42,838 nt of DNA from Erysipelothrix sp. (GTDB lineage Bacteria; Bacillota_I; Bacilli_A; Erysipelotrichales; Erysipelotrichaceae): contig JAGXRX010000037.1 of assembly GCA_018335655.1 (NCBI GenBank), forward strand, positions 1-42,838, in the 5' to 3' direction. The notes below the pieces were generated by a model. The model saw only the letters and a program-made list of their open reading frames with translations. It had not been told where the DNA came from and made no database searches. Positions 6,934-21,924 of this stretch are shown here, in pieces. Every line of letters starts with the position of its first letter. The first letter of the stretch is position 1. Both the position numbers and the translations under genes were made by a program.

Positions 6934-7282
6934 TGGTGGAGGTGAGGAGAGTCGAACTCCTGTCCAAGAAGTGTCTCACATTCAAAGTTCTACAGTTTAG
7001 TCATATCGCTCTAATCACCTCTTAAGGACATGACAAGCAAGAGATGATGAACTCACTGGGATTGTCGGGAACACGCGCTGAGCCAACTAGTGAACCTTAT
7101 TCTTTGTTTTTGATACACGTTCATAAGCCAAAGACCAACCTATGAGGTGCACGCTGATAGCAGTATTTAGCTAATTAAGCAGCGAAAGAAAGTCTGTTTC
7201 CAGATATTTTTTGTTGGCCTTTAGGTAGCCACACCACTGCCCTTTGAATCAAACAACGACCTGTCGAAACCATGACACCCCC
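6934..7282 (-). ncRNA. ssrA: tmRNA (transfer-messenger RNA)
   Basis: The 349-nt RNA begins GGGGGTGTCATGGTTTCGACA and ends with a T-arm (GGAGTTCGACTCTCC) and CACCTCC-ACCA. The 7-bp acceptor stem GGGGGUG/CACCUCC pairs fully with one G-U, and CCA is encoded. It rescues stalled ribosomes with SmpB, whose gene is ~4.5 kb away in this window. The tag frame ends GCT GCT TAA. By analogy with Bacillus and Staphylococcus, where the resume codon follows 'ACU', the tag is probably GNRLSFAA, read from GGA. This is short; the start of the tag is inferred, while the Ala-Ala end is seen. Its 3' end is the probable integration target for the modules at lower coordinates. Confidence 0.93.
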
Positions 7283-11727: not shown

Positions 11728-11752
11728 AAAGCACGATTTATCGTGCCTTTTG
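11728..11752 (-). terminator. Terminator overlapping the 3' end of smpB
   Basis: GCACGA-TTTA-TCGTGC (11731-11746) with flanking A and T runs. On the minus strand it is followed by TTTTCCTTTGTTT. It spans the smpB stop codon at 11738 and ends the secG-rnr-smpB transcript. Confidence 0.8.
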
Positions 11753-12193
11753 TTTTGTCGCTTTCGCAATCATTCGTTTAGCATCTCGCTCTTTTTCAAC
11801 TTGACGTTTGTCATGAGCTGCTTTACCCATTGCCAAGCCAATTTCAACTTTAGCCAAACCATCTCTTAAATACATTTGTAAAGGTACAATCGTATATCCT
11901 TTAAGTTTAACCTTCTTCCCCCACTTATTAATTTCTGAGCGATGAAGTAAAAGTTTACGATCTCTTTCCTCTTCATGATTAAATTGGTTTCCATATTCAT
12001 ACAAGGCGATATTCATATTCTTTAGTACTGCTTGACCATCTTTAATTTGAATAAATGCATCTTTGAACTGAACTTTACCTAGTCGAACAGATTTGATTTC
12101 TGTCCCAGTTAAGGCAAGCCCTGCTTCAAGTTTGTCTTCTATGAAATAGTCATGATAAGCACGTTTATTGTTTGCTACGATTTTGTTACTCAT
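11738..12193 (-). CDS. smpB: SsrA-binding protein SmpB
   Basis: 151 residues, standard length. The OB-fold core opens with NNKRAYHDYFIEDKLEAGL and LTGTEIKSVR, continues with KLLLHRSEI, and ends in the basic tail that reaches into the decoding centre (KRDxKR..IAKATKQKAR type). SmpB binds the tRNA-like domain of tmRNA and brings it to stalled ribosomes; the ssrA gene is in this window. Start and stop overlap the rnr gene by four bases (ATGA), so they are co-translated. RNase R, encoded just upstream, degrades the rescued mRNA and associates with SmpB-tmRNA, which fits the pairing. Confidence 0.97.
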   Translation of the reverse strand: MSNKIVANNKRAYHDYFIEDKLEAGLALTGTEIKSVRLGKVQFKDAFIQIKDGQAVLKNMNIALYEYGNQFNHEEERDRKLLLHRSEINKWGKKVKLKGYTIVPLQMYLRDGLAKVEIGLAMGKAAHDKRQVEKERDAKRMIAKATKQKAR

Positions 12194-18037: not shown

Positions 18038-19231
18038 TTATTCGTCAATCTTAGAGAAATACTTTAGCTCACTTTTCAAAACATGCGGTGTGAGAGGTGT
18101 CAACAACTCATATCCATTCTTAGTGATTAATACCATATCTTCAATATTGAAGCCATTGTATCCTGTAATGTACATTGGATTTTCAACACTCAAAATCATC
18201 CCCTCTTCTAGTACACCCTCTTGATTGTTTGAAATGAATGGTGCTTCAGCAGTCTGTGGTCCCATAGAAATACTATGTCCTAAATGACCACGTTGATAGA
18301 ATGGAAATTCTTTTAAGGTATGCTGATAACCAATATTAAAGAGATCTTTAAAGGACAATCCAGGTCTTAAAGCATTAAGCATTAATGTGTGAGCTTCAAG
18401 TAGATTTTTTTTCACCTTAACTAGCCATGGATCGACGTCAGACATTAACCAACTGCGTGAGAAATCAGTGGTGTAAAACTTAGTTCCACCGTGAACTCCC
18501 CCATCAAATTTCACCACGTCCTTAGATGTGATGATTTTTGGTGAAGAATATCCAAGTTTTCCAGCATTAAATCCTGATCCAAAAGAAGACCATGTGGATG
18601 GATAAGCCTTCAGTGATTTTGCAACTTCAAGTGAGTAGATATCATAAAGATCTTGCTCACTCATCCCTTCTTCTATCATGTTCGCAACCTTATTTAAGGC
18701 TTGATCACTAATTGAAATGAGTGTCTTAAACCACTGTATTTCATCACTTTGTTTAATAATACGTGCTTTTAAAAACATAGACGATATATTAATGAATGTT
18801 GCCTTTGGTAGTCGCTCACTCATCTGAGAAAAGAATGAAACGGGTAAGGTGTCAAGTTCAACCCCAATACGAGATTCACTCAACCCCTGCGTTTCAAGCG
18901 TCGTCACGAGGTGATCTAATAGACTCATCCATGGTTTTGAAACGTGTTCATTATCAATCTCATCTTGAGTTCTATTACCAACCCAAGTACTAAAACTTAA
19001 GACATTAAACTCATCATGATTAAATGAAGGTGTCTCAAAATCCATTCCTATGAGTGTGGGTTTATCTTTTTTAGTTATGATTGCACAAGCAAACATAGGA
19101 TTTCTAGAAACAGTATGTTGGTGTGAAGAGAAGCCACTTACATAGGCAAAGTTTTCTGGAGACTGTGCTAATGCGACATCCACACCAAAGTCTTTCATCA
19201 TTGATTGAATTCTTTGATATTTGGGGTTCAT
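18038..19231 (-). CDS. M24-family metallopeptidase (Xaa-Pro aminopeptidase/dipeptidase-like)
   Basis: 397 residues: a creatinase-type N-terminal domain (~1-155) and a C-terminal pita-bread domain. The five metal ligands are present: Asp in KFDGGVHG (~243), Asp in YTTDFSRSW (~256), His in RGHLGHS (~316/319), Glu in LSVENPMY (~350) and Glu in FNIEDMVL (~364). M24 enzymes of this form cut short peptides, often next to Pro, with two metal ions in the cytoplasm. The classic GHGxG wording is altered to GHLGHS, so the exact substrate may differ. It follows the AbgT transporter by 15 bases and is under the same cysteine-type leader, so it probably cleaves the imported compound. Confidence 0.9.
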   Translation of the reverse strand: MNPKYQRIQSMMKDFGVDVALAQSPENFAYVSGFSSHQHTVSRNPMFACAIITKKDKPTLIGMDFETPSFNHDEFNVLSFSTWVGNRTQDEIDNEHVSKPWMSLLDHLVTTLETQGLSESRIGVELDTLPVSFFSQMSERLPKATFINISSMFLKARIIKQSDEIQWFKTLISISDQALNKVANMIEEGMSEQDLYDIYSLEVAKSLKAYPSTWSSFGSGFNAGKLGYSSPKIITSKDVVKFDGGVHGGTKFYTTDFSRSWLMSDVDPWLVKVKKNLLEAHTLMLNALRPGLSFKDLFNIGYQHTLKEFPFYQRGHLGHSISMGPQTAEAPFISNNQEGVLEEGMILSVENPMYITGYNGFNIEDMVLITKNGYELLTPLTPHVLKSELKYFSKIDE

Positions 19232-19246: not shown

Positions 19247-20773
19247 TTAGTAAAGTAATCCTGCTCCTGGTCCTAATGGTAACCCAAGTAAGAACCACAC
19301 TACGAAGAGTAGTGTCCAACCTACTAAGAAGGCAATTGAATATGGAGCCATTGTTGTAATAAGTGATCCTACTCCAAACTTCATGTCATACTTTTGTGAG
19401 AAGGCCACAGCAAGTGGGAAGAAAGGCATGAGTGGTGAAATGATGTTTGTGGAGGAATCTCCAATACGATAGACGACTTGAGCAAGTTCTGGAGATAATC
19501 CTAAGCGCATAAACATTGGCACAAAGATTGGAGCCATAATAATCCATTTTGCAGAGTCTACCGCAATAAAGATATTAATGAATGCAGTAAGGATAATAAA
19601 GGCAATAATGAGTGGTAACCCAATGAAACCGATATTTTGAAGGAAGTTTGCTCCACTCACAGATAAGATAATACCTAAGTTTGAATAATTAAATGCACTA
19701 ACAAATTGAGCTGCAAAGAAGACTAAGACTAAGAATGAGGCAATGCCACTAATTCCCTTTACCATAACTTCAACAAGTTCTTTATCTGAAGTAATCGTCT
19801 TAGCACCAATTCCATAAAGTAATCCAGGTACAAAGAAGATTAAACTCATCACAGCAATAATTGATGACATAAATGGAGAAACTAGAATATTGCCTGTAGG
19901 ATTTAAGATTGCATTGCTAGGAAGGACAAGCATTAAGATAAGCCCTACAATCCCAACTAATCCAACAAGTGCAAAACGTAGTCCGCGTTTTTCAAGTGAT
20001 GCGATATCTTCTACTTTATCTTCATCATTAAAGGTATATTCACCTAAGCGTGGGATTACAATTTTTTCTGTAATGATGGTCCCAATAATTGTGATTAAGA
20101 AGGTAGAGACTACCATGAAATACCAGTTAGCAGTAGGTAGTACGGTGTAGTTGATATCAATGAAACGTGCTGCTTGTGTGCTTATACCCGCAAACATTGG
20201 ATCATTGGATCCTATAAGTAAGTTAGCACTCCAACCCCCAGATACCCCAGCAAAAGCTGCCGCAAGTCCTGCAATGGGATGTTTCTTAAAGCTTTTGAAG
20301 ATAATAGCACCTAGTGGCACTAAGACGACATAACCTGTTGAAGAAGCAACGTTAGACATGACTCCTAAGAAAACCACCGTAGCACTCACCATTGATTTTG
20401 GGGTGATAGCAACGACTTTACGCATTAATGCGCTGATTAAACCAGATCCTTCTGCCACACTCACTGCTACGATAATGGTGAATACAGTTCCTAATGCGAA
20501 GAATCCTGTAAAGTTGGAAATGACTGTTGTAAATAAATGACGAATACCATCCGCATCAAGAAGACTACGTGCTAATACTGTATTAACAACGACTTCTTGA
20601 GTTTGGGTATTAATGGTTTCATAAGTAACGCTAATCCCAAGTTGGGCTAAAAGCGCAGAAATGAGGACGATAAAGCCTGCTAGAATGACAAACATGGTTA
20701 CTGGATGGGGTAAACGATTACCTGCTTGTTCGATTCTATCTAATAGGGATTTTTTTCCTTGTTTGTTTGACAT
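19247..20773 (-). CDS. AbgT-family transporter
   Basis: 508 residues from the ATG at 20773, chosen because ATAAGGAG ends seven bases upstream; the longer frame from 20794 would read through that site. The protein opens LLDRIEQAGNRLPHPVTMF, the hallmark of AbgT, and has ~12-13 membrane helices with the conserved hairpin regions (GVMSNVASSTGYVVLVPLGA; IGDSSTNIISPLMPFFPL). Known AbgT proteins carry p-aminobenzoyl-glutamate inwards or export sulfonamides, driven by ion gradients. The leader region argues that this one is linked to cysteine supply, for example uptake of a Cys-containing or acylated dipeptide cut by the M24 enzyme encoded next. Confidence 0.9.
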   Translation of the reverse strand: MSNKQGKKSLLDRIEQAGNRLPHPVTMFVILAGFIVLISALLAQLGISVTYETINTQTQEVVVNTVLARSLLDADGIRHLFTTVISNFTGFFALGTVFTIIVAVSVAEGSGLISALMRKVVAITPKSMVSATVVFLGVMSNVASSTGYVVLVPLGAIIFKSFKKHPIAGLAAAFAGVSGGWSANLLIGSNDPMFAGISTQAARFIDINYTVLPTANWYFMVVSTFLITIIGTIITEKIVIPRLGEYTFNDEDKVEDIASLEKRGLRFALVGLVGIVGLILMLVLPSNAILNPTGNILVSPFMSSIIAVMSLIFFVPGLLYGIGAKTITSDKELVEVMVKGISGIASFLVLVFFAAQFVSAFNYSNLGIILSVSGANFLQNIGFIGLPLIIAFIILTAFINIFIAVDSAKWIIMAPIFVPMFMRLGLSPELAQVVYRIGDSSTNIISPLMPFFPLAVAFSQKYDMKFGVGSLITTMAPYSIAFLVGWTLLFVVWFLLGLPLGPGAGLLY

Positions 20774-20780
20774 ATTTTTT

Positions 20781-20803
20781 CTCCTTATGATCAATGATTG
20801 ATC
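20781..20803 (-). promoter_or_regulatory. abgT-type gene ribosome site with adjoining palindrome
   Basis: The Shine-Dalgarno ATAAGGAG (20788-20781) directly follows the palindrome GATCAATGATTGATC (20789-20803). The stretch TAAGGaG can pair with CACCTTA inside the Cys-rich leader ORF (20882-20876, and again 20908-20902), offering a route to sequester the site. Confidence 0.45.
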
Positions 20804-20854
20804 TGTATGTTGTGTTGATTGATTAGTTTATAGGCACAGGTAAAGTGCTTCATT

Positions 20855-20917
20855 CTAGCAACAACATCGTTTCCTTAAGGTGATATATATGGGTCTTCTA
20901 TTAAGGTGTGAATGCAT
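20855..20917 (-). CDS. Poly-cysteine leader peptide ORF
   Basis: A 20-codon ORF, MHSHLNRRPIYITLRKRCCC, ending TGT TGT TGC TAG. An unusually strong ribosome site (AAAGGAGG, nine bases before the ATG) shows it is translated. It lies after the T-box terminator and 81 bases before the transporter gene, within the same leader RNA. Three consecutive Cys codons just before the stop are the form of an attenuation leader peptide that stalls when Cys-tRNA is short; poly-Cys leader ORFs doing this are known from mycobacteria. Peptide function itself is not expected. Seen: ORF and ribosome site. Inferred: the sensing role. Confidence 0.75.
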   Translation of the reverse strand: MHSHLNRRPIYITLRKRCCC

Positions 20918-20954
20918 GGTATGTTTCCTCCTTTAATGGCTGTGAAGAAATAAA

Positions 20955-21208
20955 AAAGACTATCCCTCTAAAAAGAGGCGATAGTCTCGCGGTTCCACTC
21001 TTTGTTTAACTAATCTAGTTGATTAGTCCTTAACTCGGATACTTTCATATCCTAACGCTATAACAGGCGTTCCTGAATCCCTCTACATTATCGAAGGATT
21101 AGCTCAAAGATGCATTCGCAATGCTTTCACTTAAGATTCTTTCACCCGATGAATCTCTCTCTAAAAGTTTCGACACTGTTACTATTTCTTATCACAGCAT
21201 TTATTCAC
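20955..21208 (-). promoter_or_regulatory. T-box riboswitch, probably tRNA-Cys specific
   Basis: The T-box sequence GAGTGGAACCGCG (21000-20988) is followed by the terminator GACTATC...GATAGTC-TTTTTT. Stem I features include AGAGAGAGATTC, the GGTGAAAG loop region and the specifier segment GAA-TGC-ATC-TTTGAG, which aligns with the usual GAA-NNN-ACC-TTTGAG and places codon TGC (Cys) at 21114-21112. The antiterminator bulge reads TGGA, which pairs with UCCA, and tRNA-Cys has U before CCA. Both readings agree on cysteine; glycine tRNA shares the U but not the codon. When uncharged tRNA binds, the antiterminator forms and the transporter operon is transcribed. Confidence 0.85.
20958..20986 (-). terminator. 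T-box regulated terminator
   Basis: GACTATC/GATAGTC outer arms with CCTCT/AGAGG inner arms and an A-rich loop, followed on the minus strand by TTTTTTATTT. It competes with the antiterminator containing the T-box sequence. Confidence 0.85.
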
Positions 21209-21214
21209 GTTCCT

Positions 21215-21243
21215 ATAATAACTATTTAAAAGAAAGTTGTCAA
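21215..21243 (-). promoter_or_regulatory. Promoter of the T-box/AbgT operon
   Basis: A perfect TTGACA (21243-21238), 17-base spacer and TATTAT (21220-21215). The expected start near 21208 gives a leader of about 435 nt. Confidence 0.85.
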
Positions 21244-21534
21244 ACATTATGTTCACATGTTCTTTATTTATCCTTAAAGGTAATAGTACGTAAGTGAATT
21301 AAATACTCATGGCTTATCAAAACTTATATCATAACTTGGCATACTATTTCTTAATTCTGTAATTTATGCTTAATTATATCTTCTTAAAATCAAACTAGAC
21401 TTTGTATTCTCTTATCATAGGTTATTATGTATTTAAACAGAATGAAGCTTATAAAGGTATTTCTATGATTGTGTTTCACTTAGGATTATTCAAATCATTT
21501 GATATAATCAAAATATATGAAAGAAGGAACCATT

Positions 21535-21924
21535 ATGCTAGAAACGTATACCATAATATCGAAGCACTCCTTTGAAGACACAATTGCAAAACTTAAAGAA
21601 TCATTAATGTTAAATGGTTTTGGTACACTCTGTGCTATTTCTCTCAATGAACGTTTTGCCGCAAAGCAACTCTCCTATGATGATCAACTCATGATATTAG
21701 AAATTTGCAATCCACTTGAAGCTTACAATGCTCTCCTAGTTGACCCTAATATTATTTACTTTCTGCCATGCAAAATTGTGGTGAAAGCTAACAAGGAAAG
21801 CGTAACTGCTTCTATGATTAGTCCTACTGCTTTAATTGAACTCATTGGACATACTCATCTCAATGCTTTTGCTGTAAACATTCAAACATCGTTAGAAAAA
21901 GCGATGAACAGCTTATCATCGTAA
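21535..21924 (+). CDS. DUF302 family protein
   Basis: 129 residues from the ATG at 21535, chosen because GAAGGA lies 6-11 bases upstream; the frame also opens at 21517. The single domain shows the DUF302 pattern: a first strand and helix (HSFEDTIAKLKESLMLNGFG), then LMILEICNPLEAYNAL and the FLPCKIVV strand. DUF302 proteins are small alpha-beta proteins of unclear role, sometimes linked with thiol or metal handling. Cys residues here are in CAIS, EICNP and LPCK. An extended -10 (TGATATAAT) lies just upstream, so it is a single-gene unit. Confidence 0.8.
   Translation: MLETYTIISKHSFEDTIAKLKESLMLNGFGTLCAISLNERFAAKQLSYDDQLMILEICNPLEAYNALLVDPNIIYFLPCKIVVKANKESVTASMISPTALIELIGHTHLNAFAVNIQTSLEKAMNSLSS

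Follow-up and report, generated by a model that had tools for sequence, protein, structure and literature searches.

The leader peptide of rtpA is reportedly provided with tryptophan codons, as described by Chen and Yanofsky in 2003 and 2004. In Bacillus subtilis, rtpA (also called yczA), which encodes anti-TRAP, is controlled by a tryptophan T-box combined with tRNA-dependent ribosome stalling at the level of translation (PMC11255114). A different arrangement is found in the cat, erm, and tlrB attenuators, where a stalled ribosome opens a hairpin that sequesters the Shine-Dalgarno sequence (SD) (PMC6851288). Poly-Cys leader ORFs, on the other hand, are known in mycobacteria and their relatives (PMC1262725), and the mycobacterial ones of Canestrari et al. 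2020, as cited in PMC9094748, are leaderless.

The locus considered here lies in a 42,838-nucleotide stretch of DNA from Erysipelothrix sp. (contig JAGXRX010000037.1), called the window. Its minus strand carries, in series, a promoter, a tRNA-Cys T-box, a terminator, a 20-codon ORF with a strong SD, a gene for an AbgT-family transporter, and a gene for an M24 peptidase. We tentatively propose, at a probability that falls a little short of even, that this is a two-stage cysteine sensor in which a cat/erm-like attenuator responding at hungry Cys codons came to stand behind a T-box through the move of that T-box from a biosynthetic to an import operon. The elements are as follows.

21215-21243, minus strand: promoter-like TTGACA-17-TATTAT, from a consensus scan (11/12; a consensus match only)
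20971-21204, minus strand: T-box leader of the tRNA-Cys type, full length (cmscan RF00230, 112.8 bits, E 2.6e-24)
21112-21114, minus strand: specifier codon UGC after the conserved GAA (GAAUGCA), from covariance model alignment and position check
20994-20997, minus strand: T-box bulge UGGA, complementary to the U-CCA of tRNA-Cys, from covariance model alignment and position check
20952-20987, minus strand: intrinsic terminator overlapping the antiterminator, hairpin AGACUAUC..CCUCU/AGAGG..GAUAGUCU with a U run
20927-20934, minus strand: SD of the leader ORF, AAAGGAGG, from the sequence
20855-20917, minus strand: leader ORF, MHSHLNRRPIYITLRKRCCC and stop, from the ORF list
20876-20880, minus strand: candidate anti-SD CCUUA at leader codons 13-14, predicted partner of the AbgT SD in the minimum-energy fold
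20858-20869, minus strand: Arg17 (CGA) and Cys18-Cys20 (UGU UGU UGC), with CGA-UGU invariant in four genomes
20807-20817, minus strand: downstream strand CAACACAACAU, predicted partner of the Cys codons in the minimum-energy fold
20789-20803, minus strand: small hairpin GAUCAA-UCA-UUGAUC directly upstream of the AbgT SD and shared with genome G003, from sequence comparison and fold
20781-20787, minus strand: SD of the AbgT gene, UAAGGAG, from the sequence
19247-20773, minus strand: AbgT-family transporter gene (PF03806, E 2e-175)
18038-19231, minus strand: M24-family peptidase gene (PF00557)

The AbgT protein has the solved relatives 4r1i and 4r0c, and its top NCBIfam match is TIGR00819, "antimetabolite efflux", with a score under the cut-off of that model. 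The M24 peptidase gene begins after a gap of 15 nt and probably represents a partner gene of AbgT, judging from synteny, because it also follows AbgT in three relatives of the genus and in three sister-genus loci. In G003, the alignment of this gene (L033:2145-3228) falls into two pieces 4 nt apart, which suggests a frameshift or an assembly error. On the other side of the T-box, a DUF302 gene (21517-21924, plus strand) separates glgA from the T-box in the window, and glgA adjoins the T-box in G002 and G004. Elsewhere in the window, a tmRNA gene with several weakly paired helices was found at 6934-7282 on the minus strand (RF00023, 120.1 bits) and SmpB is encoded at 11738-12193. The search of a plasmid collection gave no match.

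The score of the T-box exceeds the gathering score of RF00230, 93 bits, and the model placed the specifier at UGC. The tRNA-Cys gene of the same genome gives an anticodon GCA and a 3′ end ...GGAACC-U-CCA, and both contacts of the T-box thus fit tRNA-Cys. An earlier reading of this DNA made from its letters (the sequence-only reading) had assigned the specifier TGC and the bulge TGGA to tRNA-Cys and called for a check with a covariance model, and its assignment was borne out by both the alignment and the tRNA. At the level of sequence, we therefore regard the Cys T-box as established with very little doubt. The hairpin and U run of the terminator overlap T-box sequence, as is expected of a terminator that competes with an antiterminator. 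Among the seven other T-boxes of the genome whose gene start was read, the gene begins 16-37 nt past the T-box, as against 197 nt here.

The intervening sequence is occupied by the leader ORF. The ORF list and its SD, AAAGGAGG, agree with what the sequence-only reading had described, that is, a 20-codon ORF with a strong ribosome site that ends in Cys-Cys-Cys-stop. It is the only small ORF in the window with three consecutive Cys codons. Because 40 Markov-1 random windows of the same dinucleotide make-up each contained about 1.1 Cys-Cys-Cys ORFs, such a run is unremarkable by itself; none of the random ORFs had an SD, and it is the combination with the SD that is remarkable. The Cys run is preceded by Arg-Lys-Arg (20867-20875, minus strand; RRR in G003), which fits the R/K-X-R/K motif of macrolide arrest. 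Just one Rfam match, at chance level, fell within the leader ORF region. Two further candidates were discarded. A second small ORF, MKHFTCAYKLINQHNIQINH (20791-20853, minus strand), begins 1 nt past the leader stop and has its own stop beside the AbgT SD, and as a conserved coupling ORF it is contradicted by the absence of its start codon in G003; an overlapping AUG inside CGAUGUUG reads AUG-UAG in G004.

AbgT was found in four of six genomes of the genus, and all four have the T-box, the leader ORF with a strong SD, and AbgT in series. In each of them the strong SD, the AUG, and Arg17-Cys18 (CGA-UGU) are kept, and the ORF is 18-23 codons long. The sample for these comparisons is small, four genomes in three lineages, with the following leader peptides.

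Window: MHSHLNRRPIYITLRKRCCC
G003 (UBA6182): MHSHLNRRPTFITLRRRCCCC
G002 (S1C1392): MILLLIHHQLLYRGSERC
G004 (CROMO_A_155): MKSLFKKPFLWWNIGDRCSLNIH

The peptides cannot be aligned across lineages, and at codons 2-16 only 12-16 of the 45 positions match between the three lineages (27-36%), which is background. Against this, nucleotide shuffling produced a run of six identical columns common to the three lineages in 6 of 400,000 trials, and codon shuffling gave a p value of 0.0028 for first Cys codons that share an index, although both figures presuppose saturated divergence and could be inflated by common ancestry. Between the window and G003, 58 of 66 nt are identical in the leader ORF, compared with 49 of 73 in the spacer behind it, and the ORF of G003 contains one additional in-frame Cys codon. 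As CGA-UGU is invariant at the nucleotide level, conservation of the codons and conservation of an RNA element are inseparable. The sequence-only reading had let its case depend on close relatives keeping the ribosome site and the Cys codons of the small ORF; the SD and Cys18 are indeed kept in all four, but a run of Cys codons (three and four) exists in two of them and the other two have a single Cys. A search for poly-Cys leaders behind the T-box motif GTGGAACC, which covered 395 genomes from the class and 392 from the phylum in samples that overlap and neither of which includes G003, returned the window as its sole T-box match, and the other GTGGAACC matches had no T-box continuation in the stretch shown. 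By these comparisons of sequence, the leader ORF is conserved in the genus and is no accident. It is probably functional, and we consider a regulatory role fairly likely.

What that role might be was approached by folding the RNA of the four genomes between the leader AUG and the start of AbgT. In every minimum-energy fold, the AbgT SD pairs with leader-ORF sequence shortly before Cys18, and it does so through unrelated sequences, while the Cys18 region falls within the inner helix. The predicted anti-SD/SD pairings are given below.

Window: CCUUA/UAAGG
G003: CCUUAAGA/UCUUAAGG
G002: CUUCUUUAU/AUAAAGGAG
G004: UUCUUUG/CAAAGGA

When a ribosome was modeled with codon 18 in its A site, mean SD accessibility rose from 0.26 to 0.34 in the window, from 0.35 to 0.47 in G003, from 0.02 to 0.52 in G002, and from 0.14 to 0.43 in G004; the fractions of shuffles (300 per leader) that equaled this opening were 0.107, 0.057, 0.003, and 0.050, respectively. 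The structural support from these models is modest and varies with the segment folded; it is clear for G002 and moderate for G004, and the window and G003 have weak support. Omitting the region upstream of the leader AUG abolished the opening in G003 (0.32 to 0.27) and left it in G002 with larger footprints only. Ordinary genes span a range of free SD accessibility that includes the values of the window and G003. The leader stop is 68 nt from the AbgT SD in the window and 67 nt in G003, and the distances in the remaining two genomes are 26 and 18 nt. For G002 and G004, the SD becomes about as accessible in the model with a terminating ribosome as with a stalled one.

These elements could be assembled into a two-step cysteine-starvation switch for the AbgT and M24 operon, in which translation attenuation resembling that of cat and erm is stacked on a T-box, a proposal that we consider evenly balanced between right and wrong. 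In the first step, uncharged tRNA-Cys would bind the T-box via UGC and UGGA and transcription would pass the terminator; the family and specificity of the T-box are those found above, and its behavior is what we infer from the T-box class. The second step points to translation rather than transcription because no second intrinsic terminator was found between the leader ORF and AbgT on the minus strand. In the read-through mRNA, the AbgT ribosome site would be held in a hairpin whose 5′ arm comprises leader-ORF sequence immediately before Cys18 together with the Cys codons themselves. With plentiful charged tRNA-Cys, ribosomes would complete the leader and depart, and the hairpin would re-form. 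With scarce charged tRNA-Cys, a ribosome would wait at the Cys codon or codons, the arm would stay open, and AbgT would be translated. This specific SD-sequestering hairpin, as it is modeled, has in our estimation an even chance of being the mechanism.

The origin of such a leader can be considered from the sister genera. Of 316 genomes of the order, 8 carry the signature GAAUGC...UGGAACC, all of them of the same family and with GAA-UGC plus UGGA. In three sister-genus genomes the Cys T-box is followed by a gene for a SAM-dependent methyltransferase and then by one of the cystathionine synthase/lyase type, and a fourth has the latter gene immediately after the T-box; the sister-genus Cys T-box loci with operons of these types are L018, L020, L021, and L022. 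This context is consistent with Cys specificity, as would be expected for the control of cysteine supply. Over the segment that runs from the T-box bulge up to and including the leader SD, the window agrees at 66 of 73 nt with the leader of the mcc-type operon in the sister-genus genome G012, where the homologous SD serves the methyltransferase gene. By this alignment, the SD of the leader ORF is homologous to that of the mcc-type operon. PF01053 had no match in the six genomes of the genus, of which one is 99% complete, but at least one match in each of the four sister-genus genomes tested. The absence suggests that the genus has lost the methionine-to-cysteine route; CysK is retained. No T-box was found before the AbgT homologues tested outside the genus, including the sister-genus orthologues L036-L038. 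Judging from the present-day arrangement, the simplest account is probably that an ancestral Cys T-box that had belonged to a methionine-to-cysteine type operon was joined to the import operon, and that the old gene start became the leader ORF.

The same homology could be taken to mean that the T-box alone regulates the operon, with the leader ORF surviving as a remnant of the mcc-type gene start, translated without a regulatory role and with incidental Cys codons. The absence of PF01053 from the genus and the lack of alignable peptides across lineages would agree with a vestige, but the SD, AUG, and CGA-UGU are fixed among flanking codons at background identity, all four genomes retain an ORF 18-23 codons long, and conservation is higher in the ORF than in the spacer, so that we think this explanation unlikely. 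A somewhat slimmer probability goes to the idea that translation of the ORF acts without the proposed hairpin, through coupling, mRNA decay, or Rho-dependent termination following changed RNA exposure. The modest structural statistics and the lack of a second intrinsic terminator leave room for it, and Rho-dependent models have been proposed for actinobacterial cys leaders (PMC1262725). The spread of stop-to-SD distances, however, does not favor simple coupling, and the folds of all four genomes predict, each with its own sequences, that the SD pairs with the ORF.

Two explanations that borrow the whole mechanism of a described leader appear far less probable. Occlusion of the Rtp type as in anti-TRAP, for which a precedent with the same two parts in the same order exists (PMC11255114), would require a ribosome at the leader stop to block AbgT initiation and a stall at Cys codons to relieve the block. 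The stops of the window and G003 lie beyond a ribosome footprint from the AbgT SD, with those of the other genomes nearer, and we judge this very unlikely. More improbable still is a leader of the macrolide-arrest type that senses an antibiotic at Arg-Lys-Arg in the window or RRR in G003, the arrest motif described in PMC6851288, although AbgT proteins are annotated as antimetabolite exporters, in keeping with the subthreshold TIGR00819 match. G002 (GSERC) and G004 (IGDRC) lack the motif before Cys18 but keep Cys18 itself, and the upstream Cys T-box points to cysteine.

If the two-step cysteine switch proves true, the combination of a T-box with a leader-peptide attenuator for one amino acid would not be peculiar to the tryptophan system of Bacillus, and such a stacked design could come about anew for a different amino acid and with another kind of second step. 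The locus would also provide a traceable birth of a leader ORF from the start of a displaced gene. Moreover, AbgT and the M24 peptidase would be predicted to import a cysteine-containing substrate, a function to which AbgT was not found assigned in the literature searched.

Comparison with the known systems places the locus among several of them. It shares its T-box family, specifier, and bulge with the Cys T-boxes of the mcc/ubiG-type operons in sister genera, but those operons have no leader ORF and their first structural gene directly follows the terminator. As in the mycobacterial leaders, a run of Cys codons in the window closes a short leader ORF that precedes a sulfur-related operon. 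The sequence-only reading had rightly stated that such poly-Cys leaders are known in mycobacteria (PMC1262725); the leaders described by Canestrari et al., as cited in PMC9094748, have leaderless mRNAs and none is reported with a T-box, whereas the ORF studied here is led by an SD and lies behind a T-box. A Cys version of a leader ORF behind a T-box did not appear in a limited search of open-access papers. The same reading had supposed that no sensor combining a T-box with a leader ORF was described in Bacillota, which is mistaken given that rtpA of B. subtilis is one (PMC11255114). Its claim of an undescribed regulatory system thus has to give way to that of a known kind of system in a version that differs from rtpA in amino acid, targets, and second step. 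With cat, erm, and tlrB, the locus shares a short SD-led leader ORF, predicted to be translated and present upstream of the target in all four genomes, before a predicted SD-sequestering hairpin, but the proposed trigger is a hungry Cys codon behind a T-box in place of an antibiotic, and the R/K-X-R/K motif is missing from the putative stall site in G002 and G004. With rtpA, it shares a T-box followed, past the terminator, by predicted control of translation through the same amino acid. The amino acid here is, however, cysteine instead of tryptophan, and the targets are a transporter and a peptidase, where rtpA encodes an inhibitor of an RNA-binding protein. In none of the four genomes does the leader stop adjoin the target SD as in rtpA, and in two of them it is too far away for direct occlusion, the place of which would be taken by the predicted SD-sequestering hairpin.
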